The translations under genes were made by a program, and so were the position numbers. Below the pieces are notes generated by a model. That model was not told the origin of the DNA. It made no database searches and saw nothing but the letters and a program-made list of their open reading frames with translations. DNA of 35,191 nucleotides from Spirochaetia bacterium (GTDB lineage Bacteria > Spirochaetota > Spirochaetia > CAKZLE01), in assembly GCA_021736385.1 (NCBI GenBank), contig JAIPFY010000033.1:1-35191 (forward strand), given 5' to 3'. Below are positions 2,735-10,546 of the stretch, one piece after another; position 1 is the stretch's first letter, and every line of letters begins with the position of its first letter.

Positions 2735-3486
2735 GCCAGCTTGAGGTCCGGGATCTCTCCTACCGATTCCCGGACGGGACCCATGCCCTGCAGCAGGTCA
2801 GCTTCACGGTGGAAGAAGGGAGCTTCACGGTGATCGCCGGCAGAAACGGCTCGGGAAAGACCATCCTACTGAGGATACTCAACGGACTGATCAAGCCTAC
2901 TTCAGGGGACGTGCGCATCGAAGGGATCGATGCAGCGGCACATCCGTATGAGGCGCGTAAGAAGTTCGGTCTGGTCTTCCAGCAGGCTGACAGCCAGATC
3001 GTAGGTCAGACTGTCAGCAGGGATATCGCCTTCGGGCTGGAGAACACCGGTGTCTCGAAAGAGGTGCTGAAGGTACGGGTACAGCAGATGCTGGAGATGA
3101 CCGGTCTGACCCCGCATGCCCACCAGCGTCCGAGGACCCTCTCGGGAGGAGAGAAGCGCCGTCTGACCATAGCCGATGTCATGGCAGTCTCTCCTGGTAT
3201 CATCGCCCTTGATGAACCGTTCTCAGGTCTCGACTACCCCGGAGTCCTGCAGGTCCTGCATCAGCTGGTACAGCTCAACCGCTCAGGACATACGGTGATC
3301 CTCGTCACCCATGACCTTGAGAAGGTCCTCGCACATGCAGACACCCTCATCCTGATGGATCAGGGACGCATCGCGGCGCAGGGACCGGTGCTGGAGACTC
3401 TCCCGGCTGCCGCCTCCTGCGGAGTACGCATGAGAAGAGTCCCCACCGCGGAGACGATCAGGGATATGACATGGCTGAACGACTGA
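2731..3486 (+). CDS. bioM: ECF transporter ATPase (EcfA/BioM)
   Basis: The 251-residue ABC ATPase energises biotin uptake. Walker A is GRNGSGKT (37-44), the Q-loop is VFQQ (about 82-85), the signature is LSGGE (137-141), Walker B is IIALDE (157-162) and the H-loop histidine is in VTHD (194). The motif VFQQADSQIVGQTV after the Q-loop is typical for ECF ATPases. Only one ATPase gene is present, so the complex probably uses a homodimer as in BioMNY. It overlaps bioY by 4 nt and the downstream T-component gene by 16 nt. Confidence 0.93.
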   Translation: MSQLEVRDLSYRFPDGTHALQQVSFTVEEGSFTVIAGRNGSGKTILLRILNGLIKPTSGDVRIEGIDAAAHPYEARKKFGLVFQQADSQIVGQTVSRDIAFGLENTGVSKEVLKVRVQQMLEMTGLTPHAHQRPRTLSGGEKRRLTIADVMAVSPGIIALDEPFSGLDYPGVLQVLHQLVQLNRSGHTVILVTHDLEKVLAHADTLILMDQGRIAAQGPVLETLPAAASCGVRMRRVPTAETIRDMTWLND

Positions 3487-4193
3487 TCTTCCATTATCAT
3501 GACCGCGATACCCCGCTTCACCGTCTGGACCCGCGTTCCAAGATGTTCGCGATGGCAGTACTGACGATCATGGTGTTCAACCTACCCCCGGCGGGGCTGC
3601 TGCTGATCATGCTCTATACGGCAACAGGCATCATCATTGCCGGCATGCCGATACGTGAGTACCGCAGGGAGTCTCTCTTCTTCGGGATGTTCGCGCTGAT
3701 CATCTTCCTCACCCGCTGGTGGGGCTCCTCGATGCCGCTTGAAGCTTTGATCGGGTCCCTGCGCTTCCTGACCATCGTGCTCATCGGGATGCTTATGACT
3801 GAGACCACCTCACCGGATGATATGGCACTGGCACTCTTCTGGCTGCTGCGCCGGTTCTCACGCAGGGCGGCCTATGGGGCGGCGGCACGGCTGAATCTGA
3901 CGGTGAGCTTCTTCCCCGTCATCTTCGATGCCGTACAGGAGATCTCAGAAGCCAGGAAGTCCAGGCAGGAACAGCGCCTGCGCAGACCGCTGCAGCGCAT
4001 GATCTCGATGAGTACACAGATACTCGATGTGATCATAGACCGGGCAGAGGAGATATCCTATGCGCTCGAATCAAGAGGCTTCCGGGAAGATATCCTGCAC
4101 GGGGAGCTCTCATGGGGCAGACGCGATACGCTGTTCCTGCTGCTCTCGACGCTCTGCTTCACTGCAGCGACAGCCGCCGTACTCATCCCATGA
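3471..4193 (+). CDS. bioN: ECF transporter transmembrane component (EcfT/BioN)
   Basis: The 240-residue membrane protein links the ATPase to BioY. The N-terminal HRLDPRSKMFAM (about 17-28) is the family hallmark. Four or more hydrophobic segments follow, then two C-terminal coupling-helix motifs with the family Ala-x-x-Ser/Arg pattern: ARKSR (161-165) and ALESRGF (198-204), which dock on the ATPase. It begins inside the last 16 nt of the ATPase gene and completes the bioY-ecfA-ecfT operon. Its 3' end overlaps the convergent EIIA/PII-like gene by 11 nt. Confidence 0.92.
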   Translation: MAERLIFHYHDRDTPLHRLDPRSKMFAMAVLTIMVFNLPPAGLLLIMLYTATGIIIAGMPIREYRRESLFFGMFALIIFLTRWWGSSMPLEALIGSLRFLTIVLIGMLMTETTSPDDMALALFWLLRRFSRRAAYGAAARLNLTVSFFPVIFDAVQEISEARKSRQEQRLRRPLQRMISMSTQILDVIIDRAEEISYALESRGFREDILHGELSWGRRDTLFLLLSTLCFTAATAAVLIP

Positions 4194-5010
4194 TCTTCAT
4201 CGACCCCCGGTAGATCGACACATCGGTGGTGATGATCATCGCCCCCTCTTTGCGATCGAGGTCTCCGGTGATCTTCTCTATCCCCTCGATGAGTTCGTGC
4301 TCCCGCTCTGCCGGGATCAGTGCCATGATGGTCTTGCTCTGATTCTTCCGTTCATTGAAGAAGCCGATGAAGGTGGCAAACAGCGGGATATTCGATATGT
4401 AGGCCCCCATCCCCGAGGATTCGGTGATGGTAGCCCCATCGATCCCCTCCTGGATGAAATACTCCAGGATATGATAGAGAAAATCTTCCATATAGAGCAC
4501 GACATACATCAGTTTCATCTTACGCTTGGCCGTAAGGGTGTCCATACTCTTCTCGACACTGCGCAGGAAGGTCTCGTAGAGCACACCGCTGGTCTTCGCA
4601 GCAAGCAGCTCCTTCTTGATATGGGTGGTCCCGAAGGCCCGGGAGATGCTTGCAAGGATCTGCACATGCTCATTCACCTTCTCTGCCGGCCCGATGATGA
4701 GAAAGAACAGATGCACCCTCTTGCGGTCGATCGCATCGAACTCGATCCCTGCCTTTGAGGCTGCGATCAGGACCAGGAACCGTGAGAGTCCCTCCAGTCT
4801 CATATGGGGAAGTGCCACCCCGTCACCGAACCCGGTACTGCCCTGATCCTCACGGTCCTTCAGTGCCTGATAGATCACATCCACCCCGAACGGGGCGATA
4901 TCAGGGTTCCTGACCGCCAGACCGGCCAGTTCATGCAGTGCGGTATCCTTCGTACGTGCAGTCATAGCTACACTGCAGCAGTCTTTATCGAGAATCTCGT
5001 AGAGTTCCAT
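4183..5010 (-). CDS. PTS EIIA-type domain fused to a PII-like domain, antiporter partner
   Basis: Residues 1-155 form a PTS EIIA type 2 (fructose/nitrogen class) domain, with the phospho-accepting histidine in GDGVALPH (H69). Residues from about 165 to 275 resemble a small PII-like, ferredoxin-fold domain: it starts with KLMYVVLYMEDFLYHILEYF, contains GIDGATITESSGMGAY, and ends with a strand GAMIITTDV. Such PII-like domains are known next to cation transporters. The start ATG overlaps the antiporter stop (TAATG), so the two are translationally coupled. The inference is that it senses phosphorylation state or a small ligand and gates the antiporter. No PTS EI, HPr or EIIB/C gene is in the window. 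It overlaps ecfT by 11 nt at the 3' end. Confidence 0.8.
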   Translation of the reverse strand: MELYEILDKDCCSVAMTARTKDTALHELAGLAVRNPDIAPFGVDVIYQALKDREDQGSTGFGDGVALPHMRLEGLSRFLVLIAASKAGIEFDAIDRKRVHLFFLIIGPAEKVNEHVQILASISRAFGTTHIKKELLAAKTSGVLYETFLRSVEKSMDTLTAKRKMKLMYVVLYMEDFLYHILEYFIQEGIDGATITESSGMGAYISNIPLFATFIGFFNERKNQSKTIMALIPAEREHELIEGIEKITGDLDRKEGAMIITTDVSIYRGSMKIMG

Positions 5011-6254
5011 TAATCTTCCTCCATTGCCCGCCTGATCGCCAGTCGCGAGAGCGACGGGCCTACAAGCTCATTCACAAAGACAGACAGTAATACGATATTC
5101 ACCATATCAGCGATCTGTTCAGCATACAGGTAGGTAAGTCCTTCGATCATGGGAGATGCCTGTATGAGCAGGACCAGCCCGATAGCCACTCCGGCCTGGG
5201 GGATCATACACAAGCCCAGATGGGTCTTCACACAGCCGGTAAGCCCTGAGAGCTTCGCACCGGTGCGCACCCCCCAGTACTTTGCCAGACCGCGGGCTGC
5301 GATGAAGGCGAACCCGGTGATCAGGATCTTGGTCTGGAACAGGACCCCCGGATCCAGCTCGGTACCGGCGATGACGAAGAAGAGCGCATACAGCGGCGGG
5401 GTGAGCGGTTCGATGGACTTGAACAGTCGATGGTTACGCGGCGATGCATTGATCAGCACGGTCCCTGCTGCCATGTTCGACATGAGCGGTGAGAGGTTGA
5501 GGATCGTGGCAAGGGCCGTCTCGATGAAGATGATGCCGAGTGTGATCAGCAGCATCTCATTGATCCCGTTCTTCTTCCGAGTCATCAGATGGATGAGAGC
5601 CCCCGCAGCCCCACCCATGAGCAGGGAGAAGGCGATCTCCTCGAAGGCATGCAGGATCAGGAAGCCCGCTCCGCTTGATGCGGGATTGAGGATCCCGACG
5701 ACCAGGGCGAAGACGACTCCGAAGATCGCCACGCAGCCGGCATCATCGAGAGCCACCAGCCCGTACAGATAATCGACGAACCGTCCGTGGGCTCTGAGGT
5801 TCTGCACGATAGCTACGGTGGCAGCCGGGGCTGTCGCCGTGGAGATGGCACCGAGCAGCAGGGCGAAGGGCAGATCGACCCTGAACAGCAGCATGACCAC
5901 CGTGACCGCCGCGAACGTGAGCCCTACCTGCAGGATCGTCATGATCACGATCTCCCGGCCCATGCTCTTGAGTTTCGCGGAGTAGAACTCACCGCCGATG
6001 GTCAGGGCGATCAGGCCCAGAGCGACATCGGTGACGAACTTCAGGGATTCACCCATCTCGGGATGGATGATCCCAGTGACCGTATCACCCATGATCAATC
6101 CTGCGAAGATGTAGCCGGTGATCTCAGGCAGTCGTACTCTCACGACCAGCCTGCCCATGATGTACCCGAAGAACAGCAGCAGTCCCACAGTCAGCAGCCC
6201 GTTGCTCCCGGCAATGGTACGGAACTCTATCAGTGTGTGTGTCAGTTGATTCAT
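5010..6254 (-). CDS. CPA2-type cation/proton antiporter
   Basis: This 414-residue protein has about 12 hydrophobic segments and is a monovalent cation:proton antiporter of the Na_H_exchanger family. Key blocks are VRVRLPEITGYIFAGLIMG (about 38-56), GAISTATAPAATVAIV (about 135-150) and the acidic pair ALDDAG (D170-D171), which corresponds to the ion-binding aspartates of electrogenic members. It has no C-terminal TrkA-N or TrkA-C domain, so regulation probably falls to the separate EIIA/PII-like protein encoded next, overlapping by one base. The ATG at 6252-6254 has no Shine-Dalgarno sequence. A strong promoter (TTGCCC-17-TACAAT) ends 7 nt before it, so the mRNA is probably leaderless. Confidence 0.88.
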   Translation of the reverse strand: MNQLTHTLIEFRTIAGSNGLLTVGLLLFFGYIMGRLVVRVRLPEITGYIFAGLIMGDTVTGIIHPEMGESLKFVTDVALGLIALTIGGEFYSAKLKSMGREIVIMTILQVGLTFAAVTVVMLLFRVDLPFALLLGAISTATAPAATVAIVQNLRAHGRFVDYLYGLVALDDAGCVAIFGVVFALVVGILNPASSGAGFLILHAFEEIAFSLLMGGAAGALIHLMTRKKNGINEMLLITLGIIFIETALATILNLSPLMSNMAAGTVLINASPRNHRLFKSIEPLTPPLYALFFVIAGTELDPGVLFQTKILITGFAFIAARGLAKYWGVRTGAKLSGLTGCVKTHLGLCMIPQAGVAIGLVLLIQASPMIEGLTYLYAEQIADMVNIVLLSVFVNELVGPSLSRLAIRRAMEED

Positions 6255-6261
6255 GAGCTAC

Positions 6262-6290
6262 ATTGTACAAGGTATGCAGATACCGGGCAA
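6262..6290 (-). promoter_or_regulatory. Promoter of the antiporter operon (leaderless type)
   Basis: On the minus strand, TTGCCC (6290-6285) and TACAAT (6267-6262) are spaced 17 bp. Seven bases (GTAGCTC) separate the -10 from the ATG at 6254, which puts the expected transcription start at or next to the A of the start codon. Confidence 0.65.
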
Positions 6291-6333
6291 TCATTTTGTT
6301 TTAATATTTCTGTGCTGACCGTCCATCTTCCGG

Positions 6334-6362
6334 ATGACTTCTCAGAAGTTCTTCGCTATACT
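6334..6362 (+). promoter_or_regulatory. Promoter of the DMT transporter gene
   Basis: ATGACT (6334-6339) and TATACT (6357-6362) have a 17-bp spacer. The -10 ends 9 nt before the ATG at 6372, leaving at most 2-3 nt of leader. Confidence 0.5.
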
Positions 6363-6371
6363 CATCTGCAT

Positions 6372-7274
6372 ATGAACACGACGATGATCTTCACCCCCCT
6401 GGCGATCCTGAACGGCAGTCTGATCGCGATCATGATCCTCTTCAATACCCTGCTCGGCAGTGCCGTCGGGCTCACCTTCTCCATCCTGGTGATCCAGAGT
6501 GCGGGGCTGCTGCTCACACTGCTGCTGTCCCTGCTTCGAAGCTATCCCAAGGGAGCTCCCGCCCCCGCGTACCTGAGGATCGGGGGAGCGCTCGGGGTTC
6601 CCATCGTGCTGCTGAACACCATCTGCTTTCTCAATATAGGGGCTTCACTCACGCTCGCCTGCGGGGTCCTCGGTCAGGCCTCGGCCTCTCTGGGAGCAGA
6701 TCTGACCGGGTTCCTCGGAGTTCGCCGATATGCCTTCGAAAAGCAGAAACTCATCGGGTTCCTGATCTCTCTGGTCGGGGTCGCCGTCATGGCCGTAGGC
6801 GGGAGCTTCTCACCGCTCTATATCCTGCTTGCGTTCTCTGCAGGCATCATCACGATCATCCAGATGATCATCAACTCGCAGCTTGCCGTGCGGATCGGGC
6901 TGTTCCGCAGCACCCGCAGCAACTTCGTAGGAGGGCTCATCGCCAGTGCGGCCCTCTGCCTCGCTGCAGGGGTCTCTCTCTCAGAGAGCGTGCGGCTGCT
7001 TCCGGACGTCCCGCTGCAGTATATCCTCGGAGGAGGCTGGCTCGGTGTCGTGATCGTCTTCACCATCAACTGGATCCTTCCCAGAATCCCGACAGTCTAC
7101 TCCTCTCTGCTGATGTTCTCAGGTCAGATCATCACCGCGATCATCATCGATGCCATGAGATACGGGTTCTTCCCCCGCGATCAGCTCATCGGAGCGATCT
7201 GCATCCTTGCCGGGATGCTCTACAATGTGAATGTTGACAGGATCGAGGAACAGAAGCGCTCCGCTGTCAGCTGA
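6372..7274 (+). CDS. DMT-family transporter, YdcZ (DUF606) type, duplicated form
   Basis: The 300-residue protein has about ten hydrophobic segments arranged as two similar halves of five. Each half has the YdcZ pattern: GGALGVPIVLLNTICFLNIG with GASLTLACGVLGQ in the first half, and LGGGWLGVVIVFTINWILPR with LLMFSGQIITAIIID in the second. Single-copy YdcZ proteins are about 150 residues, so this is the fused, duplicated form. The family belongs to the drug/metabolite transporter superfamily and the substrate is unknown. The frame is open upstream to 5787, inside the antiporter gene, but hydrophobic coding starts only at the ATG at 6372, directly after the promoter. It is convergent with the MutY-like gene and overlaps it by 8 nt. 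Confidence 0.82.
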   Translation: MNTTMIFTPLAILNGSLIAIMILFNTLLGSAVGLTFSILVIQSAGLLLTLLLSLLRSYPKGAPAPAYLRIGGALGVPIVLLNTICFLNIGASLTLACGVLGQASASLGADLTGFLGVRRYAFEKQKLIGFLISLVGVAVMAVGGSFSPLYILLAFSAGIITIIQMIINSQLAVRIGLFRSTRSNFVGGLIASAALCLAAGVSLSESVRLLPDVPLQYILGGGWLGVVIVFTINWILPRIPTVYSSLLMFSGQIITAIIIDAMRYGFFPRDQLIGAICILAGMLYNVNVDRIEEQKRSAVS

Positions 7275-8172
7275 TCCGATAGCGCGGTGACTGCTCGGCA
7301 GCACTCTCAGCCTCACAGAAGATGAACCCCTCTTTGACCAGGGCCTCTACACAGCTGTCTATGCGGCTTGCATCGAACTTGAGCGATGCATAGAGTTCCT
7401 CTACCGTTGAGGCTCCCCGCTCGGTGAAGACCGTCAGCAGTTCTCCTCTGATCTGTCTGTTCGAGTTCTCGAACTTCGCCTGCCGGGTGTAGTGGGCACT
7501 GCGGCGGTTGGGATTGGGGACCATGGTCTTGAGATAGACCCCGTAATCCATCAGGGCATAGTACCAGTTCCTCGGGTCCCTGCGGTCAAGCAGGGTCTCG
7601 AGCAGCACATAGAGCTCCCGGTCATGGACCTGATCGACCCCATGGTAGAAGAAATAGATCAGGACCCTGCGGATGTTGGTCTCAAGATAGAGGGAGGGTA
7701 TACCATGGGCAAACGCCAGCAGGGCAGCAGAGGTGGCAGGCCCTACCATGGGCAGGGCTTTCAGCTCCTTCTGATCGACCGGCAGGGTCCCCGCATACGT
7801 TCGTGTGCTGATCTCTGCGATCTTCTTGAGTGCAAGGGCCCTTCGGTTATACCCCAGACCCTTCCAGCAGGAGAGCACATCAGTGAGGGAAGCCCGTGAG
7901 AGCGCCTCGAGGGTCGGCCACCGCTGGAGGAACTCCTCATACTTCGGGAGTGCACGGGCGGTCTGTGTCTGCTGCAGCATCATCTCTGATAACAGGATAT
8001 GATAGGGGTCAGAAGTCTCTCTCCAGGGAAAGGAACGCCCTGACACTCTGTAGTGGCTGTATATGATCTCCCGGAACGAGTCGACGACCTCACCGGTGAC
8101 CGCTATCCCCTCAGGGAACGGCTGCGGCAGCTGGTCGAACTCGACCCGGGGTTCAGAGCTCTGCTTTCTCAC
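7267..8172 (-). CDS. MutY-like HhH-GPD DNA glycosylase lacking the iron-sulfur motif
   Basis: The 301-residue protein is a HhH-GPD base-excision glycosylase nearest to adenine glycosylase MutY. The block [18 protein letters not shown] contains the MutY catalytic glutamate (E63) and adenine-pocket residues. The helix-hairpin-helix is [15 protein letters not shown] (about 138-152). In the GPD strand the usual catalytic Asp (LDGNVKRV in E. coli MutY) is replaced by Glu in LETNIRRV (E164). The four-cysteine iron-sulfur loop that normally follows is absent; the region reads [13 protein letters not shown]. The C-terminal NUDIX-like recognition domain is also missing, and a short winged-helix-like tail (about 240-290) takes its place. 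The start is GTG at 8172, 20 nt inside the trpS 3' end. Activity on A:8-oxoG is likely but unproven. Confidence 0.82.
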
Positions 8173-9214
8173 GTTTCTTCTTCACCGTCTCTGCTTTCCG
8201 GCTGATCTTGTTCCAGGTACCCGAGAGACCCATGGCCTTCCGCATCAGCATGATCGTCTCTCTGGACTCCCTGCGCATCTTCATCGTTCCGTCATAGATG
8301 ACTTCATCGACGAGACCGGAGATCCCGGAGAACTGTTCCCTCCGCTCCCTGATGGGGATGAGGGTCTCATTGAGGGCTCGCACGAGCTTCTCCTTGACCT
8401 CGACATCCCCTACTCGTCCTTCCCGGTAACGCAGCTTGAGGTCTTCCACCTCCGCCTTGTCATGATTGAAGACATCATGGTAGATGAATACCGGGTTGCC
8501 CTCTACGGTTCCCGGGATGTCGGCTCGGATCCGGTTCGGATCGGTATACATGCCGAAGACCTTCTTTTTGACCGTCTTCTCATCATCGGAGAGAAAGATC
8601 GCGTTGTTGAGCGATTTTGACATCTTGGCGTTGCCGTCTGTCCCCACGAGCGACCCCACTTCACCGACAAGCACCTCTGGGACGGGGAATACCTCACCGT
8701 AGAGATAGTTGAACTTCCTCGCGATCTCCCGTGTCAGTTCCACATGGGCTTCGTTGTCTTTTCCCACCGGGACCAGATGAGCTCTGGGCATCAGGATATC
8801 GGCGGCCTGAAGCACCGGATAGCCAAGCAGCCCGAAGGGCATCTCATTCAGATCTGCAGAGCGTGCCATCTCCTTGAGACTCGGGACTCTCTGGAGCCTC
8901 GGGACACTCACCATGTTCTCGAAGAGCAGGTTCATCTCATAGATCTCCGGAACCGCTGACTGCAGATAGATCACCGCCTTCTGAGGGTCTATCCCGCAGG
9001 AGAGATAATCGAGGACCATCTCTCTCGCATGCTCGGCGATCTGTGCGATATGCTCTTTACCGGGTTTTGTGGTGAGGGTATGCAGATCCGCGATGATGAA
9101 GAAGCACTCGTAGGACTCCTGCAGGCGCACACGATTCTGAAGAGAACCAAGATAGTGACCGAGATGCAGTTTTCCAGTAGGCCTGTCGCCTGTCAGTATT
9201 CGTTTCCGTTCCAT
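8153..9214 (-). CDS. trpS: Tryptophanyl-tRNA synthetase
   Basis: The 353-residue class I aminoacyl-tRNA synthetase charges tRNA-Trp in the cytoplasm. The HIGH signature is HLGH (17-20) in [12 protein letters not shown], and the second signature is KMSKS (197-201). IADLHTLTT and [21 protein letters not shown] are further conserved blocks. The frame extends to 9268, but the ATG at 9214 is chosen because AGAGG lies 6 nt upstream and [14 protein letters not shown] is the usual N-terminus. The MutY-like gene overlaps its 3' end and is probably co-transcribed. Confidence 0.95.
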
Positions 9215-9370
9215 TTCAAGCCTCTTTATGATGCCGATCCGCAGCAAGCAGAATCTGTCCGCGTACATGTGAGATCAGTACAGGAATGTAGTATATGATA
9301 GACCCTCTCGAACATGAGACATGATCGGAAGAGATATGACTCAGACTCTATAACCCAATGAAAGATTTGT

Positions 9371-10546
9371 CTAGCCCTGAGGGTTCCCGTCGGGCGATCG
9401 TTCCTTCTCTGATCCGGTCTGCATCCTGCTCAATCTTCTGGCGACCCGCTCTCGTGAGTAGCGGTCCTTTCTCTGTCGCTCCTCGGTATCGATCTGTTTG
9501 CGGTACTGTTTTCCGCTGCTGAGCAGGACCGCGATCGGCTTGAGGGGTTTGACATTATCGCACATGATCTGCAGCCCAGCGGTGATGGGAACGGCGAGGA
9601 ACATGCCGATGATGCCCCAGATGTATCCCCACAGGGCAAGAGAGACCAGGATGACGAACGGGCTGAGGTTCAGCCTGTTCCCCTGGACCCTCGGGTCCAG
9701 GATATTGCCGAGCACGATCTGGATGGATGCCATGAGGACCGAGACATAGAGGATACTGGCGTAGTCAGGATAGTACTGGATCAGTGCGATGCAGATCGTG
9801 GTGACCGTTATGATGATGGACCCGATGGTCGGGATGAAATTGAGGATGAATGCGAGCACACCGATGATGAAGGCGAAATCCAGTCGGGTGGCGATCGCCG
9901 CAAGGTAGAACAGGACACCGGTGCTCAGACTGAACAGGGCTTTCACGGTAAGGTATTTCGATATCTGCCGGTTGATCCTCTCGAACATGACTGCCCATCT
10001 GATCCATCCGTGATTCGGCATGGCGACTTTCATCTTGGGGATCAGTGACCTGCGTTCCATGAGCAGGAAGAGCACGAAAATGAAGATGATGAAGGCTGAT
10101 GAGAAGATCGATACGGCAGATTCAGAGACATTCGAGAGAATATTGATCAGGAGTCCCTGCCAGTTGAAGGTGAAGGATTCAAGGAAGCTGATACCGGTCT
10201 GCAGGTCGAGGATCTCAGAGACCCAGACATCGAACCTGCTGATGAGCATGCTGATACGTACCGAATAGCGGGGTATCTCGGAGATCAGGGTGTTCACGGC
10301 GAAGGAGAAGAACAGGATAGCCATGAAAAAGACCATGACCAGGACTGCCATGGCCAGGAGGATGGCAAGCCATCTGGGGAATCCCGCTTTTTCCATCCGG
10401 TTGACGAACGGACTGAGGATGAAGAAACAGAACAATGAGATCATCAGGGGGAGCGTGACCGAAGCGCCGTACTTGAGAACGACGATCAGCAGCACGATCC
10501 CTGCTGCATAGACTACTGTTTTCATCGATTTATCAGCAACTGCCAT
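9371..10546 (-). CDS. AI-2E family (PerM-like) membrane transporter
   Basis: The 391-residue protein has the AI-2E/PerM family layout: hydrophobic segments at about 10-35, 55-80, 150-170 and 210-345, with a soluble loop between about 80 and 145. Typical blocks are LPLMISLFCFFILSPFV near the N-terminus, FILNFIPTIGSIIITV in the middle, and VQGNRLNLSPFVILVSLALWGYIWGIIGMFLAVPI near the end (shown in pieces: NRLNLSPFVILVSL, GIIGMFLAVP). The tail from about 350 is very basic and probably cytosolic. Family members export small molecules, including AI-2 or ions; the substrate cannot be read from the sequence. The ATG at 10546 directly follows a -10 by 6 nt, so the mRNA is probably leaderless; the frame is open to 10576. 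Confidence 0.87.
   Translation of the reverse strand: MAVADKSMKTVVYAAGIVLLIVVLKYGASVTLPLMISLFCFFILSPFVNRMEKAGFPRWLAILLAMAVLVMVFFMAILFFSFAVNTLISEIPRYSVRISMLISRFDVWVSEILDLQTGISFLESFTFNWQGLLINILSNVSESAVSIFSSAFIIFIFVLFLLMERRSLIPKMKVAMPNHGWIRWAVMFERINRQISKYLTVKALFSLSTGVLFYLAAIATRLDFAFIIGVLAFILNFIPTIGSIIITVTTICIALIQYYPDYASILYVSVLMASIQIVLGNILDPRVQGNRLNLSPFVILVSLALWGYIWGIIGMFLAVPITAGLQIMCDNVKPLKPIAVLLSSGKQYRKQIDTEERQRKDRYSRERVARRLSRMQTGSEKERSPDGNPQG

Follow-up and report, generated by a model that had tools for sequence, protein, structure and literature searches.

The window, a 35,191-nucleotide stretch of contig JAIPFY010000033.1 from a Spirochaetia bacterium, carries on its minus strand a gene for the membrane part only of a CPA2-type cation/proton antiporter (414 aa, positions 5010..6254; Pfam, TIGR00932 and NapA alignment), followed by a gene for a 275-aa protein (4183..5010, minus strand; ORF, Pfam and AlphaFold2) in which an EIIA domain is joined to a PII-like domain. 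At their junction, GGAGGAAGATTAATGGA, the antiporter stop codon and the fusion start codon form a TAATG overlap (5008..5012, minus strand), with base 5010 common to TAA and ATG, and the GGAGG Shine-Dalgarno sequence of the fusion gene lies within the end of the antiporter gene (5018..5022, minus strand), 7 nt before the ATG. The one-base overlap described in an earlier note on this DNA was thereby recovered, both reading frames lying where they had been placed, and the same overlap recurs at two further loci, L001 and L099. Because of this TAATG stop/start arrangement, translational coupling of the antiporter and fusion genes is suggested. At its other end, the fusion gene shares an 11-base stop-end overlap (4183-4193) with a convergent ORF (3471-4193) that is preceded by an ABC-type ATPase ORF and probably encodes the membrane subunit of an ECF-type transporter.

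The sole significant Pfam match of the window antiporter was Na_H_Exchanger (8.5e-33); the TIGR00932 CPA2 model matched at 4.5e-16, under that model's cut-off, and the nearest solved structure was NapA (5bz2, E 2.7e-8). No TrkA/RCK domain was found in Pfam and NCBIfam scans, and neither Pfam nor the NapA alignment revealed a C-terminal extension past the membrane part, in agreement with the original description of an antiporter without its own regulatory domain. In the alignment, two features of NapA are kept: LDDAGC, whose Asp-Asp pair (D170-D171; 5742..5747, minus strand) aligns with the ion-binding DD of NapA, and GLAKYWG, whose Lys325 (5280..5282, minus strand) aligns with a NapA lysine that we take to be K305, thought to bear on electrogenic exchange. 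The first Asp of this pair is absent from the antiporters of L038, L039 and L099. The window protein is thus a NapA-like CPA2 member by its sequence, and a predicted Na+ (or K+)/H+ exchanger. Antiporters of the NapA type are dimers.

The N-terminal part of the fusion (residues 1-149; 4564..5010, minus strand; Pfam and Foldseek) was assigned to PTS_EIIA_2, the only significant Pfam match of the protein (residues 5-148, 1.2e-24). Its best Foldseek match was EIIA-Ntr (1a6j, TM 0.92 over the target), so that both the fold and the active-site His of the EIIA_2 family are present. This residue, His69 (4804..4806, minus strand), is the predicted phosphorylation site and belongs to an [IV]-A-[IL]-P-H motif conserved in 15 of 15 aligned fusions, the P-H also being conserved in five stand-alone EIIAs of the same alignment. 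The domain scored below the curated cut-off for PtsN (TIGR01419, 80.7 bits vs 138.7). Since H69 is conserved and genes for both EI and HPr are present in the window's genome, a phosphotransfer route to the fusion EIIA is plausible.

The remainder of the fusion, residues ~164-275, had no significant Pfam or NCBIfam match. Its AlphaFold2 model (mean pLDDT 83.0 for this domain and 86.6 for the whole fusion) consists of beta-alpha-beta, a loop of ~24 residues and a second beta-alpha-beta unit, a ferredoxin-like fold that together with Foldseek placed a PII-like domain at residues 164-275 (4186..4521, minus strand). The best PDB matches were GlnK, GlnZ, PstA, SbtB and CPII (E 1e-5 to 1e-4), and the loops follow the PII pattern of a long T-loop with a short B-loop. 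The T-loop equivalent (residues 200-223; 4342..4413, minus strand), delimited by secondary structure, conservation and low pLDDT (53-76), carries a P-[LF]-F motif of which P209 and F211 are near-invariant in the family. Pfam P-II left the window domain unmatched and matched 13 of 19 related domains (best E 9.8e-6), the stand-alone relatives weakly, while hhalign of the family against E. coli GlnK aligned 96 columns (E 4e-6, probability 87%). On the strength of the structural model and these profile matches, the C-terminal domain is assigned to the PII superfamily. The proposal in the earlier note of a phosphorylatable EIIA (H69) fused to a PII-like domain was therefore borne out in its domain content, and its worry that the C-terminal part might not fold like PII is answered by a predicted fold that is that of PII.

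Placement within the superfamily was less straightforward. In the alignment with GlnK, T-loop R38 is replaced by A203 and B-loop K90 by M258 in the window fusion, and the loss of R38 and of the B-loop GDGK, along with the missing P-II match of the window domain, sets it apart from canonical GlnB/GlnK. The canonical PII nucleotide residues are thus mostly missing from this sequence, and with R38 and K90 replaced it would be unsafe to presume an ATP/2-oxoglutarate readout of the canonical kind. The Mrp-linked relatives described below keep the Arg, reading GMGR where GlnK has GFGR; in the domains of a second fusion type the GMG motif is gone, as are two T-loop residues. Membership of the c-di-AMP receptors PstA/DarA was considered because the fold aligns well with PstA (4wk1, TM 0.80) and a diadenylate cyclase is encoded in the window's genome. 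It was rejected: the loop lengths are reversed relative to the short T-loop and long B-loop that we take to define PstA/DarA, and no PstA family match was found in Pfam. Membership of SbtB was likewise not adopted, the genetic link being to CPA2 and Mrp antiporters and not to SbtA.

Conservation of the neighbourhood was surveyed almost wholly within Spirochaetota genomes. A single-protein scan of genome contigs returned only one close relative; a domain profile search of whole Spirochaetota genomes matched 50 of 393. Each of the 14 intact fusions found by the scan had a CPA2 antiporter as its neighbour, so that chance is excluded, and the same held for the L001 fusion and for a divergent fusion in L142; a broken antiporter-EIIA-PII arrangement in L106 was excluded from the intact count. 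Either gene of the pair may come first, and the gaps that were measured range from -1 to 28 bases. The pairing is kept across several families of Spirochaetota, which settles in its favour the question, raised with the original proposal, of whether the neighbourhood is conserved.

Four arrangements were distinguished. In type 1 (the window, L001, L037-L041 and L099), the CPA2 antiporter gene is followed by EIIA-PII. In type 2 (L035, L052-L054 and L107-L109), an HTH-EIIA gene precedes EIIA-PII and the CPA2 antiporter; L052 and L053, where HTH-EIIA was not seen upstream, lie near contig ends. The HTH_17-EIIA gene of most type-2 operons is probably a transcriptional regulator. Type 3, found in 24 genomes including the window's own, consists of stand-alone PII and stand-alone EIIA genes at the head of an operon with mnhE, F, G, B and usually C and D, which encodes an Mrp antiporter, a family unrelated to CPA2. 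In type 4 (L117, L120 and L121), EIIA, CPA2 antiporter and PII are three separate adjacent genes, and a variant (L110 and L112) has PII and the antiporter without EIIA. At L051, L113, L115 and L116, PII and EIIA pairs had no antiporter within the fetched flank, and at L104 MnhD-related genes lie further downstream of such a pair; as some pairs lack an antiporter nearby, targets other than antiporters may exist. Apparent PII fusions to other proteins in L051 and L114 were dismissed as chance upstream extensions of long ORFs. Loci of the L118 type, where a DUF1538 membrane protein is followed by a tandem PII-type protein (6005-8127 in L118; several genomes of one family), matched weakly and were treated as a different PII group. 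In a plasmid collection, no record covered 80% of the fusion, and among the matches listed only the EIIA part was represented. The stand-alone PII query returned one gene, from Acetoanaerobium. This stand-alone PII-like gene of Acetoanaerobium noterae (Bacillota; L132, 4314-6282) lies beside a DcuC-family carrier, and for this reason the PII-like family may extend beyond spirochaetes or antiporters.

A tree of 44 PII domains placed all 16 fused rows (L106 included, the divergent L142 fusion left out) on one side of a branch with 99/98 support, the bootstrap being not fully settled and long branches present. As the fused rows form one clade, one fusion event is enough to account for these domains as judged from their sequences. 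At L113, L115 and L116 a separate EIIA gene is immediately followed by a PII gene, as in the order of the fusion, and both fused paralogues are found together in four genomes (the window's own, G064, G003 and G203). Types 1, 2 and 3 coexist in the window's genome, on C17, C98 and C86 respectively, type 3 as a PII-like, EIIA and Mrp operon (mnhE, F, G, B, C and D; L036, C86:24000-36000, 5461-10510) whose Mrp subunits were confirmed by Pfam. In the same genome, Usp and EIIA genes directly follow those of V/A-type ATPase subunits B and D (L130, 1-2441; C88), a further EIIA beside ion-translocating machinery.

EIIA was also encountered as part of antiporters themselves. One of the five antiporters of the window's genome, an 840-aa protein (C86; L134, 1417-3939), carries a C-terminal EIIA_2 domain (Pfam 2.5e-10). 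Eight further spirochaete genomes, none with a strong match to the PII profile, were sampled and contained 12 Na_H_Exchanger genes, of which five encode a C-terminal EIIA_2 by Pfam (that of L143 just below the curated cut-off). A sixth EIIA-bearing antiporter, L147, was recognized by its ends and neighbours as a near copy of one of the Pfam-confirmed cases. Two of these six antiporter genes are overlapped by an HPr-like gene, each encoding a 706-aa antiporter (L146, 679-3074; L147, 688-3083) in roughly 1-Mb genomes of one genus. In L146, where Pfam confirmed both the C-terminal EIIA domain and the HPr family, HPr lies directly upstream and overlaps the antiporter gene by one or a few bases, as it does by sequence in L147. 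The divergent EIIA-PII fusion that follows an antiporter in L142, a locus from these further genomes (585-2709; hhalign 97%, E 3e-11), had been too divergent for the first PII profile, which missed it. Judged by gene content, control of antiporters by EIIA thus seems widespread among Spirochaetota.

EIIA and PII proteins are classic bacterial carriers of carbon/energy and nitrogen/energy status, respectively, and each is known to control transporters. The closest precedents of the fusion are PtsN-YcgO and SbtB-SbtA. In the E. coli PtsN-YcgO system, an EIIA_2-type protein is likewise tied to a cation/proton antiporter, and phosphorylation state decides its binding to this K+/H+ antiporter, unphosphorylated PtsN binding and inhibiting YcgO (PMC11808508). 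YcgO, however, is a CPA1 protein whose own RCK and CorC regions serve as docking site, whereas the window antiporter has no soluble domain and its EIIA is fused to PII and encoded in an operon with it. SbtB, a PII-like protein, locks the bicarbonate transporter SbtA (PMC10710835), which shares a common fold with CPA2 antiporters (PMC9477730). There too a PII-fold protein is linked to a secondary transporter; unlike the fusion, SbtB stands alone without EIIA, reads adenyl nucleotides and targets a trimeric symporter. In LacS, an HPr-phosphorylated EIIA-type domain controls a secondary transporter, although it is EIIA-Glc-like, fused to a sugar transporter and without PII (PMC10710835). GlnK-AmtB resembles the window pair in that the PII gene lies beside that of its transporter (glnK-amtB), but comprises a canonical PII with an ATP/2-oxoglutarate site, a channel as target and no EIIA. 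The KefFC and KefGB antiporters carry their own RCK domains. They too are CPA2 antiporters with an ancillary regulator encoded alongside, yet glutathione holds them inactive and its adducts activate them (PMC11808508), with no involvement of EIIA or PII.

By analogy with PtsN-YcgO and SbtB-SbtA, we infer that binding of the fusion to the antiporter is the most likely mode of action, with antiporter activity changing in response to both phosphorylation and a signal bound by PII. The NapA-like antiporter, which has no cytosolic sensing domain, would serve as effector by exchanging Na+ (or K+) for H+. The EIIA domain would signal the status of the PTS relay (PEP, EI, HPr, His69), while the PII-like domain, which probably forms a trimer as its relatives do, would sense a second signal, either a nucleotide or another small molecule, and contact the partner through its flexible, conserved T-loop. 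Once bound, the fusion might either inhibit or release the antiporter, so that Na+/H+ exchange would respond to the cell's energy and carbon status as well as to one additional signal; separate PII and EIIA proteins may act likewise on the Mrp antiporter. That the fusion is a dedicated post-translational antiporter regulator reading both EIIA phosphorylation and a PII-sensed signal is, in our judgement, probable, although the absence of the GlnK R38 and K90 residues from the window protein, the dimeric state of NapA-type antiporters and the few PII and EIIA pairs without a nearby antiporter count against it.

It is unlikely that the fusion instead controls expression, with a transcription factor or a kinase as the partner bound by its EIIA, like other EIIAs, and an antiporter gene that simply shares the transcript. 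E. coli EIIA-Ntr also stimulates the KdpD kinase, according to a statement cited in PMC13104625, and the probable transcriptional regulator in most type-2 operons fits such a role. Window-type loci, however, contain no DNA-binding partner, and both the persistence of the pairing with two unrelated antiporter families and the existence, in other members of the phylum, of antiporters with EIIA fused in cis point to the transporter itself as the target. The nature of the second signal bears on a further alternative, that the PII-like domain is a trimerisation or docking scaffold that has lost ligand binding and leaves phosphorylation state as the sole signal. The replaced nucleotide residues and the eroded type-2 domains would suit this reading, but the near-invariance of the T-loop core (P209 and F211) in fused and separate forms and the GMGR motif kept by Mrp-linked forms make it quite unlikely. 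An ordinary sugar-PTS EIIA, in an operon that helps to import sugar or to balance pH in fermenting cells, is improbable. The fructose EIIA model does score close to the PtsN model (78 vs 81 bits, both below cut-off) and the window's genome contains a sugar PTS operon, but that operon has its own EIIA, and the neighbourhoods of the fusions examined contained no recognisable EIIB or EIIC gene.

In the open-access literature searched, no description was found of an EIIA-PII fusion or a PII-Mrp link, nor of EIIA and PII acting together on one ion antiporter. The parts are of known kinds; their combination, and the same pair on Mrp, are new within that literature and the Spirochaetota survey. The fusion, if it acts as a dedicated regulator, raises a structural question, as the PII-transporter complexes known so far seem confined to transporters that are trimers (review, PMC10710835), in contrast to the dimeric CPA2 antiporters. 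These results suggest that spirochaete ion transport is tuned to metabolic state by a dual-input regulator. Gonzalez and colleagues (2005, as cited in PMC2937029) are said to have described PTS phosphoryl transfer in Treponema denticola despite its lack of PTS permeases, and for such a permease-free spirochaete PTS, Na+/H+ antiporters are a testable candidate for what is regulated. More tentatively, and with somewhat less than even confidence, we propose a Spirochaetota-wide layer in which EIIA and a distinct PII-like family gate Na+/H+ antiport by both CPA2 and Mrp systems, the fused form reading both signals; if true, antiporter gating would be a major output of the spirochaete regulatory PTS.
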